A stretch of 64,000 nucleotides of DNA from Seriola aureovittata (taxonomy: Eukaryota; Chordata; Actinopteri; Carangiformes; Carangidae), in assembly GCF_021018895.1 (NCBI RefSeq), contig NC_079386.1, forward strand, positions 18,971,552 to 19,035,551. The letters run 5' to 3'. The notes below the pieces were generated by a model. The model ran no database searches and was not told the DNA's origin. It saw only the letters and a program-made list of their open reading frames with translations. Each line of letters opens with the position of its first letter. The first letter of the stretch is position 1. Positions 3,591 to 63,803 of this stretch are shown here, piece by piece. The position numbers were made by a program, and so were the translations under genes.

Positions 3591-5016
3591 TCAGACCAGC
3601 TGCTGGTCACTCGCCTCGTCTTCACTCGAAACACTCGACGTCTGCTTCATATGTGTCTTCTGTTTCAACAGAGCTCCAACACCTGCAGCAGCAAAACCCA
3701 GCACCGCTGCCACAGCTCCGCCCACACCACCTGCAGCCCAGGTGTGTCCAGATGTGATACCTGCAGAGAGAAGCAGGTGTGAGGTATCAGCTGTCAGGTG
3801 GGTGATGAGACGGACATTATCTACTGCACTTTGATCACATGACTCAGACCAGCTGTTCTCTACAAAGTCTCATCAACAACATCTGGAGAAAACACAAACA
3901 TCTGGTCTGTGATGGTTCACTCTCACATCAACAACCAGGAAGCAGCTGCACCAGGACTCACCTGAGTCTTCGACCACCAGCTGGATGGTTTTGCTGACGT
4001 CAGACGCGTCCCTCCTCGCGCGTCCTGAGCCGCTCACTGAGACGTAACAGTCGTATCTTCCGGTGTCGTTGACGGTGACGTTCCTCACAATCACAGACAC
4101 GTCTCCGCGCTTCATCTCTGGGTCTCGCAGCTTCACGCGGTCCACGAACCACAGGTGCTGGAACTTGACGTACACGCGCTCATCTCTGTAGAAGAAGATG
4201 TATCCGCCTGAGTCCAGGTCAGCTCGGCTCCACTCCAGCAGGGACACGGCGGCGTCGGTGGCGCTGTGACACTCCAGAGTCACGTCCTCTCCCGCCTTCA
4301 CTTTCACCTCAACCTGATCTGAATAAAAAGAGAACGATCACAGCGATCAGGTGAACGGGTGAACAGGTGAACAGGTGAACGGGTGAACGGGTGAACAGGC
4401 CCATATCCATCATGTCATGACAACATCACAAAACCAAAAGACAAACCGCCATAAACTTCATTAATATTCCAAATTCTTTTTTATTATAATTTTAAAGTGA
4501 AAATCTGAATATTTATATAATTTCTTACACGTGATCTTTCGTCACAACAGGTGAGAACACCAGGTAATGTTATTAAACAACTCAAATGTTACAGCTGTGG
4601 AATATAAAGTGCTGCAAATAATAATGAAATCATTTTATGAATATTAAAATAAATAAACATTAGTTTATAATAAATTCAGGTCAATAATATGAATTAATAA
4701 CCACTTAATAAACAACAAAAAATATGGTACATTTAAATAATAATAATGTACAGTAATTAAGTTTACATAATTACATACTATAATGAAATGAGAGATCTAT
4801 TATAATACATATATGTCTATAATTATAGATAATAAACTGTGTATTATATATAATAATACTGTAATACAAATATATTCCCATGTTTAAAACAGAGATATGT
4901 GAATCATGTACATGTACAGTTTCATATAAAAGCGCTTTACAAATAAAATGTATATTTTAGTTCTTACCTTGAAGAGAAGCAACAGGAAGCAGCACGAGAA
5001 TGAGAAATAAAGCCAT
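3591..5016 (-). CDS. V-set gene 1: single V-type Ig membrane protein
   Basis: Minus-strand, three coding exons: 5016-4968 (signal peptide), 4318-3962 (V domain), 3760-3591 (transmembrane and tail), all joined in phase 1, giving 191 residues. The start is ATG in a strong context (CACCATGG). Residues 1-16 are a hydrophobic leader. The V domain (about 17-135) has cysteines near 33 and 107, LLEWSR, FFYRDERV and DTGRYDCYV, the pattern of B7/butyrophilin-like V-set domains in fish, plus an NVT glycosylation site near 96. A Gly/Ala-rich membrane segment lies at about 143-167, followed by a polar tail ending DQQLV. It is expected to be a type I surface protein; ligand or receptor role is unknown. It is divergent from the receptor gene at 7.2 kb. 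Its V-to-TM intron is nearly identical to that of the gene at 44.7-46.2 kb. Confidence 0.88.
4349..4397. repeat. Short minisatellite in intron 1 of V-set gene 1
   Basis: About five imperfect copies of an 8-9 base unit related to GGTGAACAG, close to the acceptor of the V exon. The rest of this intron (to 4967) is AT-rich and shows no coding. Confidence 0.7.
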
Positions 5017-5130
5017 GGTGAAACGTGTGAGACACGGAGACACGGGGACACGGGGACACGGAGACACGGATCTTTTCCACCGACATGAAGCGACTGCTCA
5101 GATGTTCGTCTGACAGAGTGTTTTCTCGCC

Positions 5131-5142
5131 ACTTTCACTTTC
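5131..5142 (-). promoter_or_regulatory. ISRE-like motif upstream of V-set gene 1
   Basis: The minus strand reads GAAAGTGAAAGT, an exact match to the interferon-stimulated response element core GAAANNGAAA bound by IRF/ISGF3 factors. It lies about 115 bases upstream of the ATG at 5016, a promoter-proximal place. A 12-base motif can occur by chance. Confidence 0.45.
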
Positions 5143-5416
5143 TTTATTTTCAGTTATTTTTAGCCCTGCAAGTGTGAGCAACACTGACACGTGGAGAGAG
5201 ATAAATAACATGTTATAATATCTGATACTAATTTAATATGAACGTCAGTATAGTTCATAGATAATTTAGTAGTTTAATGTTGATGGTAAAAGATCCACGT
5301 TCCTGCTGAAGGCTGCAGTTTCAGAACACAGTTGTTTATTTATTAATACTGTACAACTGTGGTACTCACACTTTGACTGACGTCAGTCTCTGTGTTCACT
5401 TCTTTTAGTGTGCTGT

Positions 5417-5608
5417 TGCCCCCCCCGCTGCCCCCTCCTGCCCCCCGCTGCCCCCTCCTGCCCCCTCCTGCCCCCCGCTGCTCCCCGCTGCCCCCTCCTG
5501 CCCCCCCGCTGCCCCCTCCTGCCCCCCGCTGCTCCCCGCTGCCCCCTCCTGCCCCCCCGCTGCCCCCTCCTGCCCCCCGCTGCCCCCTCCTGCCCCCCGC
5601 TGCCCCCT
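5417..5608. repeat. C-rich minisatellite (CCCCCTCCTG / CCCCCCGCTG units)
   Basis: About 19 alternating 9-11 base units with runs of five to seven cytosines. The minus strand is therefore full of G runs spaced by short loops and can in principle form G-quadruplexes. The long Pro- and Gly-rich frames here are products of the repeat. Confidence 0.9.
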
Positions 5609-5816
5609 GTGAGCCCTTACCACTGCAGCCTGCAGCAGCGTGAGGACTGAGGGAATCTGTGCTGACATCTGGTGGAGAAGACCTGAACAACACGGTGAGC
5701 AGTGAGCCGGCAGCTGATTGGTTACTGAGGTCCTTCCTTCTTGTGTGTTCACAGGGGCTCTGTCGAAGAGATCTTGACTCTTTACTGTTTCCAGATGTTT
5801 CCTGATGCTGTTATGA

Positions 5817-7133: not shown

Positions 7134-7170
7134 AACCACAGCGGTTTAAATAGCACCTCCAAAGAGGAAG
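7134..7170 (+). promoter_or_regulatory. RUNX-like and ETS/PU.1-like sites of ITIM receptor 1
   Basis: AACCACA at 7134-7140 and GAGGAAG at 7164-7170 stand 74-110 bases before the ATG at 7244. The same two motifs in the same order precede the plus genes at 30.5, 48.0 and 63.8 kb. RUNX and PU.1 sites in TATA-poor promoters are typical of leukocyte genes; function here is inferred. Confidence 0.5.
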
Positions 7171-7243
7171 GAAGTAATTTCGACTGATGGTAAGATACAT
7201 GATAAGGTCTGAGCGCTCGTCAAACAGTCTGTGCTGGTCCACA

Positions 7244-10200
7244 ATGGGACGAACATCTGTTCTCTGGCTGCTCTGTAAGTACAATATGTGTTGTCAAGAT
7301 TAAACAGAGAAAGGTGCTTTCAGAGTAACTGACACATGGTTTATAATGAGCAAATATTATTGAGCAGTTTGGAAATGTTTTATCTCACTTTATTGACATT
7401 CAGTCACTTGGTAAATTCACCCGTGGCACGTGACGTTCTGTAGATACTGTGTTTTAAATGACACTGTCTATCACTATCCTCAAACTCACATTACATTCAT
7501 TTAAGATTTTATGTTGAATGTCAAACCCACCTGAGTGTCGTGTGTCCTCAGTGGCGACGTCGCTCCTCCTCCTCCTCCGCTGCACAGCAAACCAAGGTCA
7601 GTAAATGTCTGTTGAAACAGTCCGTCGCTGTCAGGATCGAGTTCGGATCAAATTCATTTACTACCAGTTTAACACCTGCAGGAAATCTGTCATGTTGAAG
7701 TGATGCAGTTACAAACTTCACTCTGGAATATTAAACATGTTTTACTTTTACAAACAAGAAAATGTTTTTCCTCAAAATTCATTGATTTCCCTCCAGCTGG
7801 TCTGACGGTGAGTCCCAGCAGCTCCCAGTTCTTTAAAAGAGACTCTGTCTCTCTGAGCTGTGAGGAGGACGACAGCTCTGCTGGATGGAGGCTGAGGAGG
7901 AACACCACCAGAGAAACCAGGACTCAGTGTGACGACTGGGGAAGATCAGCTGGTTCTTCCTGTAACATCAGCTACATCGACCCATTGGACAGTGGAGTTT
8001 ACTGGTGTGAGTCCAGAGAGGGAGCAACCAGTAACAGCATCAGCATCACTGTCACTGGTAAGATCAGACTGTGGAGTCAGTGTTGATGAAGCTGTGTGTA
8101 AATGGATGAAATGCTGTAGTTTGTCTGTGTGTTGAGGTGGAGCAGTGATCCTGCAGAGTCCTGTCCTCCCTGTGATGGAGGGACATGATGTCACTCTGCA
8201 CTGTAAAACAAAGACCCCTCCCTCCAACCTCCCAGCTGCTTTCTATAAAGATGGCTCCCTCATCACAGAGACTACAGGTCACATGACCATCCACCATGTT
8301 GACAAGTCTGATGAAGGCCTCTACAGGTGTAACATCAGTGGTCATGGAGAGTCTCCACCCAGCTGGATCACTGTCACAGGTCAGGAGGTCAAAGGTCACT
8401 CTTCAATTTACCTCGTTGCATTTCCTATATTGTGTTAATCAGGTTTCACCCAGGTAAAGAGAGGAGCAACCTAACAAGTGTAGTGGGGGCCCAGAAGATC
8501 TTTGGCTGAATACTTGCAGAGGTTGTACATGGGATTGAAGTTGGCTGCAGAAGAGGCGCACAGCGTTTGTGGTTGAGCATGAAACATATAAACCGGTGGC
8601 GGTCAGGTGGAAGACGCAGTTCTTTGATGAAAGCTGCAGTCGCAGATGGTATCAAGAGGCTCGGACTGTGAGTTCTGTAGTTGTCGCTGGCTCGATGCCC
8701 GAGGGTAGATGAGAGTTACCTTGAGAAACTGCCGTAGATATTGTGGGACACACCTTTAAGATTCTGTGGAAGAGATCTTTACTCTCGCTATGGTACTGGA
8801 TGGGTCATGGGAGTTTGCCTGGCCAGTCTACATGGCCAGTCTCAGGTCGCGGCGTGGAAGTAGAAGATTGATGCCATCGCAGCCTATCAGGAACGCATAG
8901 AGGTCCAGAGGTTGGTTGGTACCACAAGTTCTTTTATAGGCCCTTTATAGGTCTTGTGGGGAGTATTGTGGGAACACTGTGGCCATTTTCTCGGTCCTTT
9001 AAAACCAGAGTGTATGAATTCTCCACGAGGAAGGTTCGTCAGTATGGTTTGTGATTTTCCTGCAGAGAATCTGAAGGCACAGCCGAGGTGTGGAGAGGTC
9101 TGAGGGTTATATATTTACTTCCTGAGGTTGACCTGGTTCTGTTGGCTCAATAGAACAACATCCTCCAGGTGTTGGACTGAAGCTGAAGGTAGCTGGACAC
9201 CCTAAAGAGCAGCTCCTCAGTTGTCTTTTAGAGGTTTCTGAGTATGTCCAACAGGAAGGGGACCCCAAGGTAGAGCAAGGACGTCTGGGAGGGATTATGT
9301 TCCTCATCTATGGAAGTAAATAACATTCCTCAGTGAAAGAAAATAGGATCCTTTATCTAATAGTTATGTATCTATATTACAAAATCTGGATGTGGTAATT
9401 ATGAGAGTGACACCTTGACTTTGTTCAGTGGGTTTAATCCTTATTTGTGGTTCTTTTTAGGGAAACCCTCCGTCACCACACCTCGTCCCTCATCTTCCTC
9501 CTCTCCTTCTGGTAACTCCCTCGTCTTTACTGCTCCTCCCGTCTCATCTTCCTCTCCTAACCTCGCGGTGCTGTGGTCCATCCCATCAGTCGCTGGTCTG
9601 GCTCTGCTGGTTCCACTGGTTCTAGTGGTGAGACGATACGTCCGGAGGAAAAATAAAGGTGAGGAACAGACTCCTTGGTTTCAGTTTTTTAGTGTAGTTT
9701 TTGTCTGGCCATCAATTCTTCATAAGAGAGGAGGCTCTGAGCCTGATTCTGATTGGCTGACTGTTTTCTTAGTGATCCAATAGAAATATAGCAGATTGCA
9801 GGTAAAAACACTCAGAGAAACCAAATCCTGCAAGGTTTGGATGGTGGGTCCAGGTGGGCGGGGCTTGGTGACTGCTTTGTTGTGACATCACAAAGTTCCA
9901 GAAGTCCTGACGGCTGGTTTTAAGGCTCAGTTTCTGAATACAGGCTGTGTGCATTTCTCTGTGGACTGAGGCTTTGATACTTTCACAGTATTAATATAGA
10001 AGCTAGAGCTGATCTATAATCACACTACACATGGACACACACCTTTTTAATATGTCTATTTACTGTTACAGCTGTGATCAGTTCTCTGCACTCCGACCAG
10101 TTTAATGTTCTTTAGTCTGATCAGCAGGTTGTTTTCCTCTGTGTTTGACGCTGTGGTCAGGGTGTTAATCTTTTAAAGGAAAGTCTACCATCGCCCTCAG

Positions 10201-11288
10201 TTTCCTGTTTGCCAGTAATAACACATCACAAAGAAAGGAAATAACTTCGTCACTTACCTGAGGCTTCACTCTTGTATCTCCTGGCCAGTGTTTCTTATAT
10301 TTAACAGTGTGTTTCTTTTCCAGAGAGCGGTCCGTCTCCAGAGGACGTCAGCTATCAACAGATACTCATCAAACCAAACAAGACGAGAGGTACAGCTGAT
10401 CTTCTTCTTCTCTTCTAAATATGCCAAAAACAGGAGACACCTTACCCCAAAGCTAACTCAGGCCTGAGACCAGTGTTACCATGGTAACAATCAGTGACAT
10501 ATGAAGGGAGCAAAGCGAGGGGAAAGAGTTTTTAGAGACGGCGGCCATTTTTTTTCACACTCTGCCCTTTTTTCATATTGAAAAACAATCTCTATTTACC
10601 CAGAATTCATTGCATCACAGTCCGGCTTAAGACAGTGAAGAACTAAAGTGCTGTCAGACTCAGTGTATCTGAGGTCTGACTGTTGGAGACACAGTCACAG
10701 TCTGTGAAACTGGCTCCAGGTCTATGAGGTCTAACAACAGAGTCTCATTTCCACATTTTAAACACTAACAGCCTTTATTGTACATTCTGTGCATCACAGC
10801 ATTTACACAGACATTATTATTCATGTTTGTATTGAGATTGTGTGGCCTTGAGGAGCGCGCTCTGTGGCTGCTCAGTTTCCTGTCAGATGAATTCCTTTCT
10901 GCCGTTCGGCAGCGGTGTGAACACTGAGCCGCATGTCAGACCACCCGCCCATTTACTGTAAAGGAAATGGCGATGCAGGTGTGTTGAGAGGAAAAGATGT
11001 ATTGAGGTTAACGGTACCACAAACCTCCTCCGTGTGGGCGGAGTGTTGTCTAATCTCTCACAGTGAACGAATGAAGCACAAAGACGCACAAACCGCTGTG
11101 GTGACGGCGACTCCTCCAGCCTGAGGTCAGACGTCCGTGACCGTGAAGTGACGACCTGCTGTTTCTCACGTTAACTCACCTGTGTGTGCTTGTGTTCAGA
11201 GTCTCCACCAGAGCCAGAGGTCATCTACTCTTCGCTGAGGTTGACCTTCCCTCCGCCCGCCGACGTCCGGCTGCAGGGGACGGTTTGA
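7244..11288 (+). CDS. ITIM receptor 1: two-Ig Fc-receptor-like inhibitory receptor
   Basis: Seven exons: 7244-7274, 7552-7596 (split signal peptide), 7797-8057 (Ig1), 8137-8379 (Ig2), 9461-9658 (stalk and transmembrane), 10324-10389 and 11200-11288 (tail). All junctions are phase 1 and the sum is 310 residues. Ig1 (26-112) has four cysteines, WRLRRNTT and DSGVYWC; Ig2 (113-193) has VTLHC and GLYRC. A Ser/Pro/Thr stalk leads to a helix at about 228-250, then RRYVRR. The tail has two ITIMs, VSYQQI (Tyr270) and VIYSSL (Tyr291), which in this family recruit SHP phosphatases. N-glycosylation sites include NTT and NIS in Ig1. The split leader resembles KIR/LILR/FCRL genes. The 1.08-kb intron before the stalk exon contains repeat remnants. 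Confidence 0.9.
8440..9400. repeat. Degenerate repeat remnants inside intron 4 of ITIM receptor 1
   Basis: This intron is long here and short in the other receptor copies. The part at about 9240-9310 (CAGGAAGGGGACCCC followed by GGGAGGGATTATGT) resembles the 3' end of common fish LINE retroelements. The rest has no open frame and no protein I can recognise. Confidence 0.35.
9770..10045. mobile_element. Dispersed repeat family 2, copy 1
   Basis: About 270 bases nearly identical to 48795-49073 (for example GGATGGTGGGTCCAGGTGGG). The copies sit in different introns of two receptor genes, so they were inserted or copied separately from the gene duplication. No terminal repeat or coding was seen. 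Confidence 0.7.
10437..10718 (+). mobile_element. Dispersed repeat family 1, copy 2
   Basis: Same blocks as 5817-6135, with a better preserved right end (TCTGTGAAACTGGCTCC). It lies in the last intron of ITIM receptor 1, between the two ITIM exons. Confidence 0.6.
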
Positions 11289-12675: not shown

Positions 12676-12739
12676 TCATTCCTTCATGTTATTTGAGTCA
12701 GGATCCTGTTTGACGTGTTGTTTACCTCTGTGGGATCTG

Positions 12740-12775
<36 letters not shown>

Positions 12776-14540
12776 CAGAGAGCAACAGCAGCGACGGCTG
12801 CAGCTGCTACAGTTTCTTCCTTCAACACTTCTTCCTGCTTCTGTCCGTCTGTGTCTTCTCCAACCGTCGTCTGTCTCCACCACGTGCTTTCAGGTGTTTG
12901 TCCTGAAGAGCAGAGGACAGGTGACAGCTGAAGGACAGGTGACAGCTGGAGGGCACAACAGCATTATCAAATATTCATATTAACATACACCTGCATACAC
13001 CTGGTCTCCACTGACGCACCTGGTCTCCACTGACGCACCTGGTCTCTACTGACTCACCTGGTCTCTACTGACTCACCTGGTCTCTATTGACTCACCTGGA
13101 CTCTACTGACGCACCTGGTCTCTACTGACTCACCTGGTCTCTACTGACTCACCTGGTCTCTACTGACTCACCTGGACTCTACTGACGCACCTGGTCTCTA
13201 CTGACTCACCTGGTCTCCACTGACTCACCTGACTCTGACTCACCTGAGTCTGACTCTACTGACTCACCTGGACTCTACTGACTCACCTGACTCTGACTCT
13301 ACTGACTCACCTGGTCTCTACTGACTCACCTGGACTCTACTGACTCACCTGGTCTCCACTGACTCACCTGGTCTCTACTGACTCACCTGAGTCTGACTCT
13401 ACTGACTCACCTGAGTGTGTGATTGTGAGGTGTCTGATCTCAGAGTGCGTTGATTTGCTGCCTCTCATGTCTCCCAGTGAAACGTAGCAGTCGTACGTCC
13501 CGGCGTCGTTGGCGGTGACGTTCTTCAGGATCAGAGAGGCGTCTCCGTTCTTCATCTCTGGATCTCTCAGCGCCACTCGGCCATGAAAACAGGGAAGCTG
13601 GTAGTTTTCATAGGAGCGCTTGTTTCGGTAGAAATAGACGTAACCGTCCGACCTCATGTCGGGTCGGCTCCACTTCAACACTTGGATGGTTTCACTTTTG
13701 GGACTCTGACACTGAAGAACTGCATTGTGGTCCGGTTTCACCGCCACCTCCTGCTGCCCTGGAGACAAACATGGATATACAGAGAAGAGTTTCCAGCTGC
13801 AGCTCATGTTGCTGTGACAACAGATTCAGCAGCGACCGTCCTGTAACTCGTGTCCTGGTATCTGACACTTCGCTTTGCTAAATTTAGCAGCAGAAACCAG
13901 GACACTGTTAGGAATCTGTTGTTGAGCTGCTGCCGTGAAACTGCGTCACAACTTCACTGAAGGAAACGGAATTCTGTGATTAAGAAGAAATGATTATTCA
14001 TTAGAAATATTTCTTCAGCTCCGTCTGTTATTTTGAAACTGAATCCTGCAGAATATTTTCACGGAGAGGACGAGAGACCGGGTTTCACTCATTTACAGAG
14101 AATATGTCGATATTAATTCCATCTGGATTGTTCCTTAAGGAATTTACAAACCAAACAACAACCTGACAACAGCTCTGTCCCTGTTACTATGTGGACACTG
14201 TCTCACTCCTCGGAGGACACCAGGAGTACGAGGCGCCCCCCAGATGAAAAACCCCTTTGATCAGGACGTGATTGATTAATTGATTATTGATTTTGTTTTT
14301 GTTTCTTCTCCAGTTGTGTTGTTTTTAATCCTGTCAGAAGCTCACACTCAGCTCACACTCAGCTCACACTCAGCTCACACTCAGCTCACACTCAGCTCAC
14401 ACTCAGCTCACACTCAGCTCACACTCAGCTCACACTCAGCTCACACTCAGCTCACACTCAGCTCACACTCAGCTCACACTCAGCTCACCTGCCGTCGCAC
14501 CAGAGAGAAAACAAACCAGGAAAACAATGAGAAGATCCAT
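12676..14540 (-). CDS. V-set gene 2: V-type Ig protein with poly-valine helix
   Basis: Minus-strand, three exons: 14540-14489 (leader), 13758-13411 (V domain), 12902-12676 (stalk, membrane helix, tail), phase 1, 208 residues. Residues 1-17 form the leader (MDLLIVFLVCF). The V domain (18-133) has LKWSRPDM, YFYRNKRS and DAGTYDCYV. The stalk is Glu/Gln/Thr rich. The helix at about 165-188 starts VAAAAVAAVALC and finishes with twelve consecutive valines encoded by 11 GTT repeats plus GTC. The tail is about 20 residues, RSHRGK to NNMKE, without Tyr. A possible alternative donor (AGAG|GTAAAC) follows the helix and could give another tail. Both introns begin directly with tandem arrays that contain the splice-donor sequence. 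Divergent from ITIM receptor 2 across only about 0.86 kb. Confidence 0.85.
12742..12775. repeat. (CAA)n triplet repeat inside the membrane-helix exon
   Basis: Eleven triplets. On the minus strand it is (GTT)n in the valine frame of V-set gene 2. Any of the three minus-strand frames would give Val, Leu or Cys, all membrane-compatible. Confidence 0.9.
12985..13410. repeat. 19-bp minisatellite built from a splice donor
   Basis: About 21 units close to CTCTACTGACTCACCTGGT, with variants and a CTGACTCACCTGAGT sub-form. On the minus strand most units read CAG|GTGAGT. The array starts exactly at the donor of the V exon of V-set gene 2, so it carries roughly 18 copies of a consensus 5' splice site downstream of the real one. 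Confidence 0.9.
14338..14489. repeat. 11-bp minisatellite at the leader-exon donor of V-set gene 2
   Basis: About 14 near-perfect units of AGCTCACACTC. On the minus strand each unit contains GTGAGC, the donor used by the leader exon, and the array abuts that exon. Confidence 0.9.
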
Positions 14541-15396: not shown

Positions 15397-18300
15397 ATGG
15401 GACGACTTCAGTGGCTGCTCTGTAAGTACGATCTGTTCTTTTTGAAGATAGAAAATATCATTTTAGCTCGTGTTGGGGAGGAAACGTTTCAAAGAAATCA
15501 TGTAGTATGAATGAGCAGGAGGGAAACGTGAAGTTAAGGAAGGGTTAATGTCGTAAGGTTCATGTTGGGACAGGAAGTGAAAACATATTAACCACTCGAT
15601 CAGTTGGGGGTGAAGGGATGTCGATGTTGGTCAGTCCACCACCGCCAAGATAGGTTTTATTTTTTTAAGTATATTTTTTGGGGCTTTTTATGCCTTTATT
15701 TGACAGGACAGCAGAGAGAGAGGGAATGACCTGCAGTAAAGGCCGTGGGACTCGAACCTGCGGCAGCGACGACTGTGGCCTCTACACATGATAGATGGGT
15801 TTTATTTAACTATAACAGAAAACCACTGAGCTGCTGTAACTCTCAACTGGAGTTTATTTTACTTATATTTATGTTACCGAAGGGTGATGATCTGTTTAAT
15901 GTTTCATTGTGATCACAGCTTTAAGCAACCATAGCAACCACAGCAACCACAGCAACCATAGCAACCATCTGATATATGAAACTTCATTGAAGGCAGCTGA
16001 ACTTGTATCATGAACCTGGACAAAAGTAAAAGAAGCTTTTGAAGAATGTTAATCTAAGAGTGAGTCACACACACCACAAACTCTCAGTTCGCTTTCTGTG
16101 TCATTTTCCTTCAGTGCTGACTTCGCTGCTGAGCTGCACAACCAACACAGGTCGGTTACCGTTCCTACAAACATCTGTTTCACTATGACTGTGTTCTTCA
16201 GCCACTGGCAGCTCTGTCATGTTTACCTCCCACCATCACGCTCTGCTGGGACTGATGCAATCACCTTGTTTGATTCAGCACTAAGCTTTACTCAGGCCTG
16301 TGTTAACGGTAGAAAATACCTTATTTCTGCACAGTCTTTTCTCTAATATCGTCACTGTGGATGTGTTGTTGCAGTTTCACAAAGACAGACTTCGACTGTG
16401 TCTTAGATACAGTCAGATTTCAGATACATGTCTAAATCCACCCGTTGCACAAAGCACTTTACTGACTATCTTAAGCCAGACTGTGGTACAATGAATTCTG
16501 GGTAAAGTAAGATTTTTCTCAATGTAAACAAAATGGCCGACCCCAGCAGAAAATTGAGAGATGATGGAGAGACAGTTTGTTATAATCGTGAGTCCCTGCT
16601 TTGAATTTCCTTGTGAGGAGTGACGACGTTCGAACTCTAATACTCTGAATTCCCTCCAGCTCTTCTGACGGTGAGTCCCAGCAGCTCTCAGCTGTTTGAA
16701 GAAGACTCTGTCTCTCTGAGCTGTGAGGAGGACGACAGCTCTGCTGGATGGAGGCTGAGGAGGAACACCACCAGAGAAACCAGGACTCAGTGTGACGACT
16801 GGGGAGAATCGGCTGGTTCTTCCTGTAACATCACTCACATCGTCCCATTGGACAGTGGAGTTTACTGGTGTGAGTCCAGAGAGGGAGCAACCAGTAACAG
16901 CATCAGCATCACTGTCACTGGTAAGATCAGACTGTGGAGTCAGTGTTGATGAAGCTGTGTGTAAATGGATGAAATGCTGTAGTTTGTCTGTGTGTTGAGG
17001 TGGAGCAGTGATCCTGCAGAGTCCTGTCCTCCCTGTGATGGAGGGACATGATGTCACTCTGCACTGTAAAACAAAGACCCCTCCCTCCAACCTCCCAGCT
17101 GCTTTCTATAAAGATGGCTCCCTCATCACAGAGACTACAGGTCACATGACCATCCACCATGTTGACAAGTCTGATGAAGGCCTCTACAGCTGTGACATCA
17201 GAGGTCATGGAGAGTCTCCACGCAGCTGGATCACTGTCACAGGTCAGGAGGTCAAAGGTCACGCTTCAGTTGACCTTGTTTGACCTCATTAGTTCAATAA
17301 AAAAGTTTCATTTTGTAACTTTCTGAACAGTGAAATTTATGAATTTAATTAATTTTAGAGAAACCCACCACCACAGCTGGACCTACACCCACCTCTCCTC
17401 CTTCATCCTCCACCTCTCCTCCTTCTCTCACGGTCTTATTGCCTGTTGTATCTGTCTGTGGTCTGGTTCTACTGGTGTTACTGGTTCTACTGGTGTTACT
17501 GGTTCTACTGGTGAGACGATGTGTTCGGAGGAAACAAATAGGTGAGACACAGATTTTACATGATCTAGATGTTACTCTCTGAGGTCTGAGGGTATTATCT
17601 TGATTTATTACATTTATACACATTATTTTTTAGATACTTACATAGAAGATAATACCCGAGTGTTTTATATCCCAATCTCAGCTCTTTCACTAATGACGCC
17701 CCTTTTTGACCCTGTTTACACTGTGCAAAGAGATGATTTGGCCCAAATGCTGAAAAACTGAAGCCCAGTTATTTTGTGAAAACAAACCTTTACTGATGTG
17801 AGTGAAGAGTTCTGATTGGTTTACCAAAGTCTTGGGTTCATAAACATAGTGCAACATGTGAGTGAAGTAGTACATTAATGTATGATAAAGTGTTATCTGT
17901 CACTCTATTTTAACCATATTTTGGAGACTGTCTATTAGTCACGTACGATCTTGCTAGAATATGAAACGGAAGGTGGAGAATCTACAGATTCTCACAACAT
18001 TTAAATCATATTTCTACGCTGTATTATCACAAAGATATTCATAGAAACATCAGTCGAGCTCAGAGGTTTTTAAATTCCAACTACAAAGTGTTTCCTTGAA
18101 TTAAATGTCTATTATTCTTGTTGTTACTTACCTCGTTGTTTATTTTGGTTTGTTCCAGCTGCTGAAGCAAAAGGTGGAGAAGATGAAGATGATGTCAGGT
18201 ACTGTGATGTTGAAATATCACGACATCAACAGCCAATCGGACGGAGCGGAGGAGGTGTTTTTTTTTGTCAGAATGTATTGTTTATTGTATGTTGTTTGTT

Positions 18301-26848: not shown

Positions 26849-26899
<51 letters not shown>

Positions 26900-37856: not shown

Positions 37857-37887
<31 letters not shown>

Positions 37888-37960: not shown

Positions 37961-38159
37961 GAGGAACATCTTCTCCCTCCTGCCTTCTGAGACTTCTGAG
38001 CTGCTAGAGTTTAATACCCCCGCCCCCCCCCCCAGGTTTACCTCCCATCTGATTGGGCGATGGGGGTCTTGTCAGGAGTTGGCCACACCTTTTCTTCTTT
38101 CTACTTTGACCACTTTGACCAGCGCTGCTGCATTGTTAGACAGATGAACAGATGTGTTG

Positions 38160-45719: not shown

Positions 45720-45756
<37 letters not shown>

Positions 45757-45889
45757 TTCACAATAGCTGCATTGAACCAACACTTTAACTTTTAGTTGCT
45801 GTTTCTTCTTATGAGTCAATGACGTTTACATAATGACGTTTAAAACAAAACAACTTCCACTAAATACAAACAATAACAATAACAACTGT

Positions 45890-45921
<32 letters not shown>

Positions 45922-46065
45922 GTAGTATGATACAACATGCGCTGTGATGTGATCGGTTTGTGCTCGACACTGAGCAGCTGGATAAATCAAGAGAACAACA
46001 ACAAATGCAAAACAGTATGAGTCATGGGCGAAGGCGGAAGACTTTCTTCCTGTTCTTTCCTCCGT

Positions 46066-46134
<69 letters not shown>

Positions 46135-46200
46135 CTCACCTTCAGCTGCAGAAGATAGACAGTAGTTCAGAAAGTATACACAGAGAAGCACGGACGGCAT
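44729..46200 (-). CDS. V-set gene 5: V-type Ig protein with repeat-encoded stalk and helix
   Basis: Minus-strand, three exons: 46200-46140 (leader, MPSVLLCVYFLNYC), 45453-45100 (V domain), 44943-44729 (stalk, helix, tail), phase 1, 209 residues. The V domain (21-138) has ATLQC, LLEWSR, FFYRNNRS, two NV[TS]-type sites and DAGTYECRI. The stalk is made of Lys-Glu-Gly-Gly-Asp-like repeats from a 15-base minisatellite. The helix begins with seven valines from (GTT)7 and continues CGVLLPLCIIVAGFMCV; the tail RRHKYQYRDGRTDKY has three Tyr but no ITIM. A shifted frame in the same exon would read poly-Leu but does not join the V exon. The V-to-TM intron is nearly identical to that of V-set gene 1. Divergent from ITIM receptor 4 across 1.8 kb. 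Confidence 0.86.
44862..44937. repeat. 15-bp coding minisatellite (CTCCCTCCTTGCCTC-type)
   Basis: About five units with the codon frame kept on the minus strand. It encodes the charged stalk of V-set gene 5. Confidence 0.8.
45709..45754. repeat. Poly(C)(CA)n in the leader intron of V-set gene 5
   Basis: About 14 C then 16 CA units. Confidence 0.95.
45895..45922. repeat. (AAT)n microsatellite
   Basis: Nine triplets. Confidence 0.9.
46069..46133. repeat. (CA)n adjoining a leader-exon donor
   Basis: About 32 CA units, one interruption. On the minus strand the GT run starts six bases after the donor GTGAGC of V-set gene 5. Confidence 0.95.
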
Positions 46201-47988: not shown

Positions 47989-50900
47989 ATGGGACAAACA
48001 TCTCTTCTGAAGCTGCTCTGTAAGTACAGTAAATATGAAATTATATTGACAGCATCAGGCTGAGCTGGAGTCAGATACAAAGAGTAAGATTTACTTTAAA
48101 GCTCCTAAAACAAATTTTATATGTTTATTAAACCACCAAAAAAGCTGAAAAGAGAAACAGAATTTAAATGAAATGTCCGGGATCTTCACAGAAGTTCACT
48201 TCTCTGAGTGAAAAGAAAAAGAGGAAGAGTTTCACGAGGATGATTATCTCAGATAACATTGATTTATCTGTGGAAAGTCTGATTTAATGCAGGACACTGC
48301 AGAGAAACCTCAGCAGTGCTAACCGACATCATCACCTCCGCCCCCAGTGCACATCCTGTTGAATCATGACTTTTAACCCATGTTATCATTTATTAAAAGC
48401 AACTAAACTTTTATTCCCTTAAAGCCTCAGATACATTTGTTATTTTAAAGATCAGGTGCATTTTATAATTTTTAATCATCAGTTTGAGTCTGTAAAATTA
48501 TTAATTGTTATTTGTGTCATTTCTCTTCAGGGCTGACCTCGCTGCTCTGCTGCACAACAAAACAAGGTCAGTGAACGCATCATACGACATAAAACTGTTC
48601 AATTAAATGAATGAAGCGCCATATTTTCCTCTTCATCTGTGTTTTATTTATTAATATCTAATATTAATATTGCAGTTATTGATGTGGACATTTCTGCCTT
48701 TAAGGTCATGAGTGTGAGTTTTGGTTTTAAATCTGATAGGTGAGCCGATCAGAAGAGAAGACGCTCTGAGCCTCTGTTCTGATTGGCTGCCTGTTTTCTG
48801 AGTGATCCAATAAAAATAAAGCAGATTTCAGGTAAAAACACTCAGAGAAACTAAATCCTGCAAGGTTTGGATGGTGGGTCCAGGTGGGCGGGGCTTGGTG
48901 ACTGCTTTGTTGTGACATCACAAAGTTCCAGAAGTCCTGACGGCTGGTTTTAAGGCTCAGTTTCTGAATACAGGCTGTGTGCATTTCTCTGTGGACTGAG
49001 GCTTTGATACTTTCACAGTATTAATATAGAAGCTAGAGCTGATCTATAATCACACTACACATGGACACAGACCTAATCTCTCTAATGCCATCAACACTAA
49101 CAGGGGCTTTTGACACATCATGCTTTAATGAATTCATCAGGACTCATGCAATTATCAGAATCACTGAAGTATAAAGTGTTACCAACGTGACGATGTGTTC
49201 AGGATGTAAACAGCAAATAATATACAATCAAGGAAGTCCACATGAGTAACAGATCAGGCAGTGATGGTTGCACTGTTTTATTTATCAGCTGGTCTGACGG
49301 TGAGTCCCAGCAGCTCTCAGCTGTTTAAAGGAGACTCTGTCTCTCTGAGCTGTGAGGAGGACGACAGCTCTGCTGGATGGAGGCTGAGGAGGAACACCAC
49401 CAGAGAAACCAGGACTCAGTGTGACGACTGGGGAAGATCAGCTGGTTCTTCCTGTAACATCGGTGTCATCGTCCCATGGGACAGTGGAGTTTACTGGTGT
49501 GAGTCCAGAGAGGGAGCAACCAGTAACAGCATCAGCATCACTGTCACTGGTAAGATCAGACTGTGGAGTCAGTGTTGATGAAGCTGTGTGTAAATGGATG
49601 AAATGCTGTAGTTTGTCTGTGTGTTGAGGTGGAGCAGTGATCCTGCAGAGTCCTGTCCTCCCTGTGATGGAGGGACATGATGTCACTCTGCACTGTAAAA
49701 CAAAGACCCCTCCCTCCAACCTCCCAGCTGCTTTCTATAAAGATGGCTCCCTCATCACAGAGACTACAGGTCACATGACCATCCACCATGTTGACAAGTC
49801 TGATGAAGGCCTCTACAGCTGTGACATCAGAGGTCATGGAGAGTCTCCACGCAGCTGGATCACTGTCACAGGTCAGGAGGTCAGAGGTCACTCTTCAGTT
49901 GAGTTGATGACCACAAACATGCTTTTAATCCTTTCTGTATTTATTCCAGAGACACCCACCACCACAGCTCCTCCACCTCCAGCTGTTACTACATCTGTAA
50001 TCTTAGTTTCTGCATCTGCCTGTGGTCTGGTGCTCCTGGTTCTGTTGGTTCTGCTGGTTCTGTTGGTTCTGCTGGTGAGACGACGTGTCCGGAGGAAACC
50101 TGGAGGTGAGACACACTCAGCACTTCCCCTGAGGGCTCCAGTGAGGACGTTCTTGAGGTTAATGTTACAGTTTAAATATAATAAATGTAAATGTGTTTCA
50201 GCGTGTAGTAAAAAAACACAACGTGACTTTTGAAACTTTCATTAGCTCTTTCACATTTAACATTTATATACGACTCAAACCTTCTTTAGTAACTGGAGGT
50301 TCAGACTGTGGTGACTGTGTTTGAAGGATGAAGCATGTTTTGTTTCTTGTGGTCAAGGTGTTGGTACGAGAACAGAAATCGTGCTGCAGTTCAGTTTCCT
50401 GTTTTCTTGTTTCGTGCACGTGTCTCTACCTGCAGCTCAACACGTCAGCTTCTCACTTTGCGTTTATTGTTGTAGCCATGACAACCGAGGTCCGGTCGGC
50501 TTGCCGTGGTAGGGTCGTATCAGATGGTTGAAAACAAAAACCGACCTGTGTTTGTGGTTCAGGTAAAATATTTGTTATTTGACTTCTTCTGCAGAGCGAG
50601 AAGCAGCGCCGCTGTCCTCAGCTGTGAAAGGAGCAGCTGACGTCAGGGATGAAGCAAACAGCTGGACAGGTACGTCAGCTGCTCTGCTGTGAGGAGGCTG
50701 TGGTCAGTGTTGGTGATGACGTCAGGAGGGAGGCCCTCCACAACTAGTTTAACCCTGCTAACCTTAAAAGTCAAACTCAAGTTGTATTTTAGTTAAAATT
50801 CAAATGTAGGTTGATGCTGAGGGACATGTGTTGTTCAGTGAGTGGTGTATTATAAAGTGACCAGATTGCTGAAATGAAAACCAGCTCAGTGGTTAATACG

Positions 50901-52584
50901 TCATCAAAATATCCAACGTTTTTACTGATGAAATAAAGGGGGACCATCCCGGTCTCATGTATTTTGACCATGCCAACTGTTGTGCTGGAAGGCCGACTGA
51001 TAAAATGATGGCTCCCTACTTTTGAAGCAGTCGTGAAGTTCTATTGTCTATCCATTCCTCAATTATTCCATAAGGCTCCACAGATCCAAAGAATCAAAAT
51101 AATTGTTTTTATAAATGGTTGTGAATATCGTCGCATGAAGTCCATCGCAGACAGTCAGAAAACTTCTCCTTCCAACATAAAAACTATTTTCAAGTTCCGG
51201 CTGGGGGGCTTTTGGGTATGTTTGCTTTTGTTGATTTTCTTCCCGGTTATGAACTCCTAAGCAATGAGTGAGCCCGCTAACTTTTCTCTGCCTAGAGACC
51301 ACAAAAAGAAAAGAAAAATCTGATTGGACAACTCTGTTTTGATGGTTTTAGTGTCACTTCTAAAGCTGCTATCGCTAGCAGCCAGTTCCCAGTTTTGGCC
51401 AAAACAAGCGAAACGCTAGTTTTTAATTACAAAAGTTTAAAGATTGGACATTTCCAGGGACAGTGAAGTGGGTGTGAATTTTACAGTTCACAGAGGTGTC
51501 GTCAGATTAAAATGTGACCTGATGATGTCACTGGATGAAAAGTTAATACTGAGGGGAGGAAGTTCATCACAATCCATCCAAATTGTCTGCTGTACCTCCG
51601 AGGGTCAGCAGGGTTCACAGAGGTCCGTTCAAAACCTTGAGCGTGTTCATCAAACAGATCGCAACATTTCTCACCCATTAAATCTCGTCGCACTGAAAGA
51701 AAAGTAAGAAGTGTTTTCTGCTTGGCACAGAGTGGTTTACTGTGACTGGTAAAAGTGTGAGAAGTGAGCAGCTCTGTGGTCGTCCATTTTCCTGTTTCAT
51801 AAGTAATCACCTGCTGAATTCATTTTCTTTCATCTTGCACAGAAATACTGTTAAAAATAAGTGTAATATCGTCGTATCCTGATGCTTTCAGCTAAAATTA
51901 ATACAATTTCTATCGTATTATAAAATAAACATAAATGAAGGTTGTTAATGTTGTAGTGATGTGTTCTGGGTATTATTTGTACGTTTTAAATGCAGTCACA
52001 TGACTCTTCTGTTGCAGGAGCTGATGCAGCTGCAGTTTACGCAGCAGTGGGAAGAACAGCAGACGTCAGTTACGGACAGATCATCATCAGAGCAAACAGC
52101 AGCAGAGGTACAGCTGCTCCTCTTCCTCACTGAAGCTTCCTCTGTCTCTGCTCAACGTGGCCCCGCCCACAACGAGCAGGTGCTTGGATCATTAAACTGT
52201 GCATCCACCTGCTCACTGTTTACTCAGTTTACTGCACTTGTTGCTATAGATTCAGTTTGTGAGCACAGGTTCTGGTTCTGGTTCTGGTCTCCGTACAGGC
52301 AGGACGGAACCAAACCCGGCAACCTCACCGTGACGACTGACTGTTGCCGAACAGGAAACTGTTCCAGCACACTGATTGATAATATATTTGTTCTTTTGTA
52401 CGAAAGCATTTGGAAACATTTTAGAGGTGCTGCCAGATGGGTTTTGCTTCCAGTCTTTATGCTAAGCTAACCTAGCCATTGATAGATATCCTTTTAAAAA
52501 GTGAGCTACCTGTTGTGTATTGACCCCCCAGTATATAGAGTATGTTTACAACAAAATTATTATATATACGCTCCACTGAGGTGA

Positions 52585-52628
<44 letters not shown>

Positions 52629-52704
52629 GTGTCCACCAGAGCCTGAGGTCGTCTATTCGTCACTGATGTCGACCGTCACAGCTTGTCACCAGTCCACCCA
52701 CTGA
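47989..52704 (+). CDS. ITIM receptor 4: two-Ig Fc-receptor-like inhibitory receptor
   Basis: Eight exons: 47989-48019, 48531-48566, 49289-49549 (Ig1), 49629-49871 (Ig2), 49950-50105 (stalk/TM), 50595-50669, 52018-52107, 52628-52704; phase 1 throughout, 322 residues. Leader 1-22, Ig1 23-109 with four Cys, Ig2 110-190. A short Thr/Pro stalk leads to an LLV-repeat helix of 17 residues and RRRVRRK. The tail has ITIMs VSYGQI (Tyr286) and VVYSSL (Tyr307) plus the ITIM-like AVYAAV (Tyr275). The exon at 50595 has no Tyr. Ig1 lacks the NIS/NIT site of receptors 1 and 2 (reads NIG). A copy of repeat family 2 lies between the leader and Ig1, and repeats of families 6 and 7 lie before the 52018 exon. Confidence 0.9.
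48795..49073. mobile_element. Dispersed repeat family 2, copy 2
   Basis: Same strand and nearly the same sequence as 9770-10045, but in intron 2 rather than intron 5 of a receptor gene. Confidence 0.7.
50890..51415. mobile_element. Dispersed repeats of families 6 and 7
   Basis: 50890-51080 matches 21595-21790. 51337-51412 matches the flanks of the minisatellite at 35027-35230. Both are in one intron of ITIM receptor 4. Confidence 0.5.
52584..52622. repeat. (GT)n microsatellite beside the last-exon acceptor
   Basis: About 18 GT units directly before the acceptor TTTTCAG of the last exon of ITIM receptor 4. It occupies the place of the polypyrimidine tract. Confidence 0.9.
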
Positions 52705-59016: not shown

Positions 59017-59047
<31 letters not shown>

Positions 59048-59693: not shown

Positions 59694-61086
59694 TCACGCC
59701 AGCTGTTGGTCAGCTGCTGCATCAGCAGGAGGTTTGTATGAACTCTGCTCTGTGAGTCTGCGTTTCCTATAGATCATGAAACCAACAACAACAACAACAA
59801 CAACAAGCAGAGCAGCAGCTGACAGACCGACTTCCAGTGCAACACGTCCTCTACTGTTTCCCTCCTTGTCTCGTCCCTCCTCGTCTCCTCTCTCCTCTGT
59901 GATACCTGCAGAGAGAAACAGGTGTGAGGTATCAGCTGTCAGGTATGTGATGAGTGAAGAATTCTTCACACTCCTGTCAGACATTATCTACTGACTCACC
60001 TGGCTGAACGTCCAGATTGATGATGCTGATTGGCTCAGAAATGCCCCTCTTCCTGCGGTTTCTTCCTCCCTGGACAACATAACACTCGTATCTTCCTGCG
60101 TCCTTTTCTGTCACGTCCTTCAGAGTCAGAGACACGTCCCCGTCCTTCATCTGTCTGTCCTGCAGCTCCACCCGGTTCTGAAGAGACGGGAGCTGGTAGG
60201 ATGTAACACACCTGCCGTCCCGGTACAGAAACACATATTCTGGCTCCAGCTCAGGTCTGCTCCACTCTACAACTATGATGTTTGTGTCTTCGGGAGCTCG
60301 ACATGGCAGAGAGACATTCTGTCCAGGTGCAGCTTTTATGGTCTTTGTCTGATCTGAAGAAAAGAAAACACAGAGCACAGAGGTCAGAGGTCAACTCCTC
60401 ACCAATCAGAGGAGGAGCATCAAAGAGGAGCCATACAAACATGTTACTCATAATGTTCGGTTCAGACTGTGATGTTGCTGTAGCTCATCTCCTCTCCCTG
60501 TAAACTGCTTGTTGCCGATCACACCCACAGATCTAAATATTTAATTACCAATAGAAAAGTTTTTCTTTAGACTTGTCTGTTGCCCTGGTGCATGCTGGGA
60601 GGCTGTTTTCTGTCCACGCCCAAACCCCCACACGCTACACCAGGAAACCAAGTGTGAGCTGTGACTGGTCTTAATGCGTTCGTGTGGAGAGATTCAGTTG
60701 CCAACAACATTCACTCTGCAGCTTCAGTTCAGCTGCTGGAGCTTGAACACACTGGGAGAGGAGGCATTAATCAAATCCTCCAAATACATTTAGGTTTTAT
60801 ACACACACACCGACACATGGACATAGGTCAGTTTTGTCTCTGTATAACAAGTAGTTTTAGGAGCCAACAGGCTGTGGTAACTAAATGTTGGAGAATGAAA
60901 AACGAAGCTATTTATCATTCGCTCAAATTGATGATAAAGTATTAACAATATAACCCGTAGCTTTAACCAAACACCTGTCGGCAAACAGGAGTCTGTAGAG
61001 CGGAGCTCACCTGTAGCAGCTGACACCTGCACACAGAGGAACAGGAGAGTCCAGCTGAGACAAACAGGCGACACAGCACACGTCAT
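59694..61086 (-). CDS. V-set gene 6: V-type Ig protein with poly-valine helix
   Basis: Minus-strand, three exons: 61086-61011 (leader, MTCAVSPVCLSWTLLFLC), 60353-60000 (V domain), 59905-59694 (stalk, helix, tail), phase 1, 213 residues. The V domain (26-143) has VSLPC, VEWSRPEL, FLYRDGR and DAGRYECYV. The stalk is charged (EERGDEEGRDKEG). The helix reads LSAAALL, then seven valines from (GTT)n, then GFMI; the tail YRKRRLTEQSSYKPP ends ADQQLA, close to the DQQLV end of V-set gene 1. The V-to-TM intron is only 94 bases and related to that of gene 1. Divergent from ITIM receptor 5 across 2.7 kb. Confidence 0.9.
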
Positions 61087-63686
61087 CGCTCTGATCCTCT
61101 TAATCCAACAGTCAGATTATTATAAATCCACGGGGATACTTCACCAGGAGATGAAGAGGAGCAGAAACAGAAAAGCTAAGTTTAATCTATAAACCTTAAG
61201 ATTCGGGTTATAGATTAAAGTTAGCTTTCACATGAGGCTGTGAAGAGAGCGCGAGCTGGAAAGTCCCTGACTGTCTCTAGAAGACGGAGGGAGGCTTTTA
61301 TTTGGTGGCTGGGTGGGTGGGCGTGGCTTAACAGCTCAGTGATAAGTTACATATCACCATGGTGACGTCACCAGGGTAAAGTCTGAAACTAAAAGGAACA
61401 TGCTCTGTGTGTCAGATCATTAATGATGATGGTTTAAAAACAGCCGTCACACAAAGGGCCTGAACATGATGTGATTACATGTATATTACATTATGAGGAT
61501 GGGTTTTATGTATGTAGCTGTAGTTACAGTGGGACTCGGAGCGTCGGAGAGGAAGACGCCTCACTGCAGAGCAGAGGAGGGCGTGCATGTTCCCTGCAGC
61601 TCTTCTTGTAAATCATGTGACCTGCTGATCAACAGCAGGGAAATGAAGCTGCTTCAGTTTTGTTTCTCTTTAACTTCTGCTGCTCAGTGTTTCTGACTTC
61701 ACTCACCAACATCTCATTGTATTTCATGTATTTGTTTTCATGGATAAAATGAAAAAATAAACGGAATAAAAGACTTTACAGCTGCTCCACCTCGACCAGC
61801 AAACAGCAAATAACTGCTGTTGATCCGTAATACTCAAGTCATATTATAACAACGTAATGAAAACTTAAGCCTTTTCTCCTACCAACACTACGTCTGTATG
61901 TTCCCTGAAGTAAATGACCTGAACTTTACCTCCCACTTCTACAACAGAACACCAGCAGAAAGATGAGGCTGTAGGTAAAGCCTGGAAACCAGACTGATTC
62001 ACAGGTCTGGAACAGACCACCCCGAATTAAAGAGGTTATCAGGAAGGGTAAAAGGTTAAAGGTCATTCTCCTTTATGGCAGACTGCTGCAAGCTGCAGTG
62101 TGTAGGTATCTAGTTGGGCTGAACAATGTGCATGAGAACATGCTATGTGCCGTGTTCTGGGACTGGGCTCACCTTCCTTATCATACATACTTGGTTATAT
62201 ACTGCACATACGTTTTCTTCACATGAGCTGCTTCCAGTACCTTTAAGTGCTCAGACTTGAGTACTCTACTGGGGCCCTCATCATGGAGCATCAGTGTCAC
62301 GGCACCATTGTGTCCTGCAAAAAAGGTGGACATGATTTTCTATGCTTAGCTGACACCGAATGTCATGTGGATGTAGCAAAGGTCCGTGCAGAGCGTAGCA
62401 GTTACAGCGGATGCTCCACGATGAGTCCTGGACTGACCTGAGTGCGGCTGAACACTCGCACCCTTTTACACACTGGCAATAATCCACAGAGATCACAGTC
62501 TGTCCTGTGTTAACTATCCATTGTTATTAATACAATGAACACATGTAAGTGTAGATGACAAATAAATGAAAATGTCACATGTTTAAATGATCATGTTCAA
62601 ATGTTGCAGCATGTATTATTCCCTACCAGACATCTCCCTCTGCTGGTCATACTGTGTAACTCCACCCTGACATGAATGTTGCTGTTAACACGGGGTGATG
62701 AGCAGTTTATGTAGTAATCTATTTGTAACCAGCCGTGACAGCAGGGATGGTTTAGTTTTCACCTGGTCACTGTGTGTTACAATAACTACTGAGTACTGTG
62801 TCGCCAATGACAGCTTAGAGTATCCATGTGTACTCAGCAGTTACTAGTACATTAGCAGATGAGTACTGGACAAAACTTCATTGTCCATTAGATTTGCATA
62901 AAATGGAAATTTGTCCCAGACGACCCAGCAACTCAGTCAAACCATAAATATATAAGTACAAAAATACTCAAAATACACAATAAACCTGGATCAGGCCTTG
63001 AGCCCCGCCCACCACCTGCTGGCTCCAGGTGGACAGGTGAAAGAGCAGAGAGCATCAAGATGGTGAGAGGAGGAAACATCAGAGAGACTCAGTCAGACCC
63101 AGACTCAGAGTCTGAGACCAGAACCAGAGACTAGCAGACGGGTCAGAACCGTTAGCACCTCTTCAGAACGGTTAGCACAATTAGCATATTTAATTTGTTT
63201 ATGTTGCTTGTTAGCTTGTAACTTGCAGTGGCTAACACAGTGTTAGTGGTTTTGCTAATGCTAACTCTCTCTCTCTCTGGAGTGACAGATTTATTTAGCC
63301 CCGCCCCCCGTCCCTACCAGCTGACAGGATTGGTTCCTCAGGTTTGTGAGGTATGAAACCCTGGCTGTCTGAGTGTGTGTTTATGAGAGTCATTGGTTCA
63401 CTGCAGCTCAAGGTGGAATCAAAAACACCAAATATACATGTAAAAAATGTTAAAAACTATATTTAACTGTTGAGTCCTGCACCATCCCTGAGTTTATGCT
63501 TCTATAGACCAAGACTGGTTTTGATTTTTTTTCTTTACTGATTTTTCTTTGTAAAAAAATGTAAAGATCCTCAGTTGAGACAGAGGCACCACTGTGTTTG
63601 TCGTCATATTTATTGGAGAGTTTTGTGTCTTTAAGGTAAAAACAGTTGTAGTTGTAAACCACTGTCCTTACTGCAGCAGCCGAGAA
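61087..63686. other. Divergent intergenic region between V-set gene 6 and ITIM receptor 5
   Basis: No coding exon is supported. Short frames at 61493-61696 and 62247-62496 have no recognisable domain. The right part holds a copy of repeat family 4. Confidence 0.6.
62990..63390. mobile_element. Dispersed repeat family 4, copy 2 (inverted)
   Basis: Reverse complement of 33735-34090, with blocks AGAACCAGAGACTAGCAGAC and GACAGGATTGGTTCCT. Confidence 0.65.
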
Positions 63687-63704
63687 AACCACAGCCAGAG
63701 GAAG
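63687..63704 (+). promoter_or_regulatory. RUNX-like and ETS/PU.1-like sites of ITIM receptor 5
   Basis: AACCACA at 63687-63693 and GAGGAAG at 63698-63704, 69 bases before the ATG at 63773. The two motifs are closer together here than in the other copies. Confidence 0.5.
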
Positions 63705-63772
63705 AGGGCGGGCTCTACGTGATGTCACCTACACAACATGTAGAAGCTGATCACAGCCCTCTGAGCAGGACG

Positions 63773-63803
63773 ATGGAGCGCTCGTCTCTACACTGTCTGA
63801 TCT
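63773..63803 (+). CDS. ITIM receptor 5: first leader exon only (cut by window edge)
   Basis: ATG GAG CGC TCG TCT with a 31-base exon ending in CTGATCT|GTAAGT, the same length, phase and donor as the first exons at 7244, 30520 and 47989. The upstream RUNX/ETS pair is also present. The remaining exons lie beyond base 64000, so domains and ITIMs cannot be confirmed. Confidence 0.7.

Follow-up and report, generated by a model that had tools for sequence, protein, structure and literature searches.

Head-to-head V-set and FcR-like receptor genes in Seriola aureovittata: a candidate cluster of paired receptors with linked self ligands

We analysed a stretch of 64,000 nucleotides (chromosome C23, 18971552-19035551, hereafter the window) from the 647-Mb genome of the yellowtail Seriola aureovittata, in which genes for membrane proteins with a single V-set immunoglobulin (Ig) domain stand head to head with genes for two-Ig receptors resembling Fc receptors (FcR). 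The sequences make us highly confident of three things taken together: the V genes of this family adjoin receptors, mostly in divergent orientation; the receptor domain D2, the intron before it and most of domain D1 have been kept nearly identical, most plausibly by repeated gene conversion; and three short spots in D1 stay different among copies. The concerted ectodomain with its three variable spots is the strongest feature of the locus and is new beyond the pairing itself; an earlier note on this DNA had recognised the layout and passed over the ectodomains. We favour, with a probability of about 0.42, a linked self-ligand and paired-receptor system, the locus being a putative percomorph cluster of FcR-like paired receptors with a recurrent head-to-head V-set/receptor unit. 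No title or abstract opening reporting a pairing of V-set and FcR-like genes was found in the literature searched, a scope that left out most subscription papers.

Gene models for the window were built by splice-site reading of the DNA, and the start codons were re-checked. The models comprise six single-V-set genes on the minus strand (V1-V6, start codons at 5016, 14540, 27004, 37969, 46200 and 61086) and five receptors on the plus strand (R1-R5, start codons at 7244, 15397, 30520, 47989 and 63773). They bear out the five back-to-back pairs that the earlier note had described, namely V1/R1, V2/R2, V3/R3, V5/R4 and V6/R5, with ATG-to-ATG gaps of 2227, 856, 3515, 1788 and 2686 bp, respectively, and add a sixth V gene, V4, that has no receptor partner. 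The claim that all five receptors carry two Ig domains and immunoreceptor tyrosine-based inhibitory motifs (ITIMs) holds for R1-R4, with R3 having one clear ITIM-like motif, and not for R5, seen as a signal-peptide exon alone. With the strands fixed, every receptor lies directly to the right of a V gene in only 6 of the 462 orders of six V genes and five receptors (1.3%), and a chance origin of the window order is therefore unlikely. An alternating minus/plus array also yields tail-to-tail neighbours. The features are as follows, in window coordinates.

3591-5016, minus strand: V1, single V-set transmembrane (TM) protein (signal exon 5016-4968, V exon about 4318-3962, TM/tail exon 3761-3594), head to head with R1
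7244-11288, plus strand: R1, two-Ig FcR-like receptor with FcR fold and motifs VSYQQI and VIYSSL, annotated as P0001
7783-8417, plus strand: putatively homogenised D1-intron-D2 tract of R1, 95.9-97.4% identical to R2-R4, flanks not aligning
12676-14540, minus strand: V2, single V-set TM protein, head to head with R2 across the 856-bp gap
15397-19569, plus strand: R2, FcR-like receptor with ITIM-like motifs, last exon shorter than in Trachinotus P0093
16646-17280, plus strand: the corresponding tract of R2, from alignment with the other window copies
24928-27004, minus strand: V3, V-set gene of type B with signal and V exons found, head to head with R3
30520-34462, plus strand: R3, FcR-like receptor annotated as P0079, its one clear ITIM-like motif being IVYSSL
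32612-33226, plus strand: the corresponding tract of R3, from the same alignment
36198-37969, minus strand: V4, V-set TM gene without receptor partner
44729-46200, minus strand: V5, single V-set TM protein, head to head with R4
47989-52704, plus strand: R4, FcR-like receptor with motifs VSYGQI and VVYSSL
49286-49900, plus strand: the corresponding tract of R4, from the same alignment
59694-61086, minus strand: V6, single V-set TM protein of type B, head to head with R5
63773-63803, plus strand: R5, signal-peptide exon (MERSSLHCLI) of a probable receptor, followed by GTAAGT

The annotated P0001 starts 19 residues upstream of the R1 model, and R5 is probably a receptor by its position and by the likeness of its exon to the first exon of R3. 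A TM exon of V3 was looked for by splice-site reading and not found. Receptor queries against 37.0-44.9 kb, beside V4, gave a best match of E 0.36, and a receptor relic there is rejected.

The same arrangement recurs along C23. When the accessible genome sequence was searched with the V domain of V5 (136 of 136 candidates scored, matches kept up to E 1e-6), the 14 matching exons lay exclusively on C23; we interpret them as 12 V genes. Other V-set families are spread over many chromosomes. Receptor exon matches numbered 92, of which 91 lie on C23 and one on C6. For 10 of the 12 V genes, the next family member on the 5' side is a divergent receptor-family match, so that neighbouring genes in repeated pairs, as expected of linked receptors and ligands, are the rule for this family. 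The partnered V genes outside the window lie at 17.829 and 18.135 Mb (both pairs inverted, 1.14 and 0.84 Mb away), 18.162, 19.223 and 19.247 Mb. A hand reading of the genome matches also places a receptor tail to tail with seven of the 12 V genes.

By fold match, the receptors have an FcR-type two-Ig ectodomain, their best PDB matches being FcgammaRI, FcRL5 and FcepsilonRI-alpha, and cytoplasmic ITIM-like motifs are present in R1, R2, R3 and R4. The V genes have an IgV fold of the B7/BTN/CAR kind, and tied top fold matches leave the family unplaceable beyond "B7/BTN/CAR/MOG kind". B7 proteins have an IgV followed by an IgC domain. In contrast to B7, butyrophilin, CAR and MOG, the models of V1, V2, V4, V5 and V6 run from one V domain straight to the TM segment with no C-type domain after it, the V3 model being incomplete. 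Relatives with two V domains are present on C23. A 217-bp 3' part of V1 (window 3753-3969) is 99% identical to one such two-domain gene (C23:19221819-19222035), and V genes may thus exchange sequence too. Among annotated receptors, P0029 of Seriola lalandi has two successive D1 domains before D2; the additional D1 is either genuine or the product of a fused gene model.

The receptor copies were compared in a set of 14 that match the R1 D2 at 91% or more and all share an exact 33-base D2 anchor; one further locus (L023) at 82% and many matches at 35-73% fall outside it. The copies at 17.83 and 18.13 Mb, with D1 at 71-72%, were set aside before counting, leaving a core of 12. In these 12, on both strands and over 1 Mb, a tract of about 600 bp made up of D1, a 79-bp intron and D2 is near-identical and alignable in all copies examined, and the flanks fall into unrelated groups. 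In the window copies, one border of the tract falls no more than about 15 bp from the D1 acceptor, the other about 20 bp beyond the D2 donor. The intron is identical in 12/12 core copies, and D2 varies in 5 of 80 codons, with proportions of synonymous and nonsynonymous differences (pS and pN) of 0.0030 and 0.0053.

Grouping by flanks more than 80% identical beside the tract reduced the 14 copies to eight groups. Six activating-type copies share a 3' flank, four of them also the 5' flank, and the 17.83- and 18.13-Mb copies share their 3' flank; R1-R4 and the copies at 19.23 and 19.51 Mb have neither flank in common with any other copy. Since flanks differ across groups, recent duplication explains identity inside the group of six and not across groups, and recent duplication alone is rejected. 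Purifying selection alone is unlikely, given the identical intron and a largely species-specific D2. The latter was seen in 45 proteins, hand-picked from the 120 listed and belonging to species with at least two entries, where the nearest neighbour came from the same species in 42 cases for D2 (the three misses falling between two Seriola species), in 27 for D1 and in 24 for the TM segment and tail; possible isoforms inflate all three counts. The plain reading of these sequences is concerted evolution of D2 by gene conversion. At C23:17825986 and 18130347 (L028 and L027), the intron and D2 are nearly as in the window copies and D1 has diverged, as if conversion had been confined to the latter half of the tract. 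That the near-identity of the ectodomains arose in assembly or polishing is very improbable: the DNA was read from one assembly only, but flanks and D1 spots differ among copies, and species-specific D2 sequences recur within the proteins of other species.

D1 behaves differently along its length. All 12 core copies have distinct D1 haplotypes; 19 of 86 columns are variable, and 17 of these 19 fall in columns 9-14, 44-49 and 56-64. Two D1 codons show purely synonymous variation, and pS (0.043) and pN (0.046) are similar over the whole domain, so that diversifying selection in D1 is suggested by the clustering of the variation and not by an excess of nonsynonymous over synonymous change (dN/dS). 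In the strand order of the P0001 model, the three spots lie at about 55-60 (between strands 55-57 and 62-67), at 90-94 and at 101-109 (between strands 99-102 and 111-116). Loops of this kind resemble the D1 contact loops of KIR. A review says no more than that six loops of D1 and D2 are used (PMC3972465).

The chief rival starts from the same domains: the receptors would be fish Fc receptors binding immunoglobulin through the constant D2, and the V-set genes would be unrelated neighbours brought together by expansion of an Ig-superfamily cluster. D2 is the main Fc-contacting domain in mammalian FcRs, and here it is nearly invariant in the core set. The FcR fold, FcRL5 and FcgammaRI as best relatives, and the names FcgammaRII-like or FcRL5 given to Seriola receptor genes in the source annotations point the same way, as does a two-Ig flounder FcgammaRII studied in IgM-opsonised phagocytosis, according to the accessible portion of that report (PMC8718553). 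This explanation leaves the 10 divergent V-receptor neighbours among 12, inverted copies included, and the three variable D1 spots without a cause, and we regard it as possible though rather doubtful. If the self-recognition reading is true, the FcgammaRII-like names would not be evidence of antibody binding in fish.

The signalling parts divide the near-identical ectodomains into two classes. The TM segment is leucine-rich in five of the 14 copies, namely R1-R4 and that at 19.23 Mb; in the other nine it contains Arg or His and, after it, the pattern IST(V/G)xMVSLY. By analogy, we take the former to be inhibitory-type, with ITIMs seen in R1-R4 only, and the latter to be putatively activating-type; near-identical ectodomains joined to opposite predicted signalling parts, as in paired receptors, are thus found across the set. 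In its annotated frame, R3 is without the middle ITIM that its relatives have (34380-34462), and the final exon of R2 is cut short (19546-19569); some inhibitory tails (R2, R3) may be decaying. A divergent V partner accompanies all five inhibitory-type copies and two of the nine activating-type ones. Were partners spread at random, the seven partnered copies would include all five inhibitory ones with a probability of 36/3432 = 0.010 (calculated by hand). This value rises to 21/792 = 0.027 when two activating copies with unread 5' sides are left out and to 3/28 = 0.11 when each set of copies sharing a flank is counted once (giving five inhibitory and three activating groups, one of the latter partnered). 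This gives a weak hint that inhibitory-type copies are preferentially partnered.

The earlier note had taken the pair to be the unit of duplication, a claim that the divergent pairs and the comparison of the 17.83- and 18.13-Mb pairs support in part. These two pairs are collinear throughout: three receptor segments of 910, 167 and 69 bp are 90%, 75% and 81% identical, respectively, two segments of 132 and 196 bp that separate the receptor D1 exon from the V exon are each 69% identical, and 690 bp of the V gene are 71% identical. Among five compared, the V domain at 17.83 Mb has its best match at 18.13 Mb. A copied block is the simplest reading, and the pair was probably copied as a block at least once. 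Within the window, a recent block duplication of the five pairs is rejected, as the five gaps share no sequence at E 1e-3 and the V domains are only 34-51% identical to one another. The divergent promoter that had also been proposed is unlikely to be shared in four of the five pairs, with gaps of 1.8-3.5 kb, and a common promoter sequence, sought in the same E 1e-3 comparison of the gaps, was not found. The same findings bear on an explanation by co-regulation, in which V gene and receptor would be co-expressed in one leukocyte type, perhaps acting in cis, and would not be ligand and receptor. The divergent order repeated in distant copies and the two conserved receptor-V stretches argue for it; the gaps speak against it, and so does the recurrence of these stretches (68-79%) upstream of the 19.109-Mb receptor, which lacks a V partner; they are therefore perhaps receptor 5' sequence. 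We consider co-regulation quite improbable.

Comparison with other fish bears on the age of the lineages. For the receptor tails, compared with the proteins among the matches listed after exclusion of the fish's own entries P0001 and P0079, the best matches were Trachinotus P0047 for R1 (56%), Trachinotus P0093 for R2 (65%), Lates P0066 for R3 (46%) and Lates japonicus P0074 for R4 (47%). R2 and R4 are 68% identical to each other over 77 tail residues, which leaves their split undated. The V1 domain is 75% identical to Trachinotus P0122 and 70% to Lates japonicus P0123; V2 and V5 are closer to cichlid proteins (60-63%) than to each other (51%); V6 matches Caranx P0183 at 66%, about as closely as it matches the 18.13- and 19.22-Mb V genes; and V3 and V4 match Channa P0171 (53%) and P0123 (50%), respectively. 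These matches suggest that R1, at least, and several of the V lineages predate the genus, as most lineages probably do. Linkage in other fish is indicated by shared contigs and near locus tags, not by gene order or orientation: in Lates calcarifer, receptor P0109/P0111 and V-set P0127 lie on one inferred contig of 37,148 bases, and in Trachinotus anak, receptor P0047/P0093 and V-set P0122 on one of 10,764,517 bases; near tags are found in Perca fluviatilis (PFLUV_G00170380 for the receptor, PFLUV_G00170430 for the V-set gene) and Channa argus (Q8A73_012539/_012545 for the receptor, _012556 for the V-set gene).

Under the linked self-ligand and paired-receptor reading, repeated gene conversion would keep a shared ectodomain framework across inhibitory- and activating-type copies, which would let both kinds of member see one ligand class, and the three D1 spots would set specificity. 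The head-to-head V-set protein would be the linked self ligand, or a cis partner, of the inhibitory receptor; its role as ligand is put forward tentatively, at somewhat short of even odds. A further version, germline self recognition by the Ig superfamily in which each inhibitory receptor would be co-inherited with its own V-set self ligand, activating copies elsewhere in the cluster would carry the same converted ectodomain and conversion would shuffle the three D1 spots like cassettes, renewing recognition on a retained framework, is unlikely but conceivable.

Several observations weigh against this reading. A V partner is lacking for most receptor matches (92 matching exons against 12 V genes), neither V4 nor the V gene at 18.126 Mb stands in divergent orientation to a receptor, the partner of the 19.247-Mb V gene is a diverged receptor about 20 kb off, and the V match at 18.162 Mb is weak (34%). 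The copied-block reading is weakened as well: V6 (65%) and the 19.22-Mb B domain (61%) both resemble the 18.13-Mb V domain more than its counterpart at 17.83 Mb does (57%), and the supposed intergenic conservation extends to the V-less receptor, as said. Many family members (73-82% and 35-64%) stand outside the homogenised set, and the shared flanks of the six activating copies mean that recent duplication explains part of the identity. V and receptor ectodomains evolve in different modes, unlike what a strict code of one V per receptor would lead one to expect, and D2, the most conserved part, also fits immunoglobulin binding. The congruence of V and receptor distances, the comparison by which the earlier note had wished the duplication unit to be judged, is weak as well: similarities of V domains and receptor TM segments agree with a Spearman Mantel correlation of 0.44 over seven pairs, which 210 of 5040 permutations attained (62 of 720 once pair 17 was dropped, and 4 of 24 for the four window pairs alone), in a test of low power because the TM strings are short and hydrophobic. 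Weak congruence, the many receptors without V genes and the tail-to-tail neighbours would all suit hitchhiking, that is, an ancient V-receptor neighbourhood copied repeatedly by unequal crossing-over, its order having no function. Against this, the V exon is open in all six window V genes and several V lineages are closer to other genera than to the V genes of this genome, and we hold hitchhiking to be improbable.

Some further sequences were noted. Tandem repeats lie at window 12998-13413, 5420-5610 and 18280-18820, the first being made of a splice-donor-like GTGAGTCAGT unit directly after the V exon of V2. Outside the ectodomain tract, a 326-bp stretch is 96% identical between the R1 region (9720-10044) and the R4 region (48749-49074) and is probably an interspersed repeat. 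Beyond the window, two near-identical receptors stand tail to tail about 3 kb apart (coordinates 79633-80218, plus strand, and 83212-83800, minus strand).

Among known fish families, the LITRs are reportedly a multigene family with inhibitory and charged-TM activating forms, a likeness that the yellowtail receptors, by their predicted types, share with them and with the NITRs. Coevolving activating and inhibitory Ig receptors are also said to occur in the CEACAM1/CEACAM3 type, which differs in Ig architecture and for which we know of no head-to-head partner family. The NITRs comprise inhibitory forms and activating forms with a charged TM residue, and their variation is attributed to recent birth and death in the accessible part of the source (PMC2442602); here, in contrast, the framework appears homogenised, a comparison made by description only and not by homology. 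With FCRL proteins and classical Fc receptors, the window receptors have in common the two-Ig FcR fold and ITIM-like tails, and they differ in their expanded cluster, concerted ectodomains, variable D1 spots and V-set neighbours. A 2014 survey, in its accessible part, lists four zebrafish FcRL5-like genes and names gene conversion as an alternative explanation for clustering by lineage (PMC4016189).

By analogy, the closest working parallel is the NKR-P1/Clr kind joined with conversion of the Siglec-11/16 type. Linked receptor-ligand pairs are best known among natural killer cell C-type lectins, and many linked pairs of the Ig superfamily, together with activating- and inhibitory-type receptors whose ectodomains hardly differ outside three spots, would, if true, be a natural experiment on how self recognition stays in step with its ligand. 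In NKR-P1/Clr systems (KLRB1, KLRF1 and KLRF2 with CLEC2), a gene for a leukocyte receptor likewise adjoins one for a surface protein, and the two are co-inherited; the accessible part of one account places the NKp80/AICL genes tail to tail at a distance of 7 kb and gives 3 kb for NKp65/KACL (PMC3819593). Those are C-type lectins in tail-to-tail order, whereas the present genes belong to the Ig superfamily, stand head to head and are known from genes alone. For Siglec-11/Siglec-16, the accessible text of one study states that repeated gene conversion keeps inhibitory and activating ectodomains similar (PMC5701461). The likeness lies in converted, similar ectodomains in inhibitory and activating members; the difference is that Siglec-11/16 are two primate genes, whereas in the yellowtail the copies number at least 12, occur on both strands, vary at three spots and have V-set genes linked to them.

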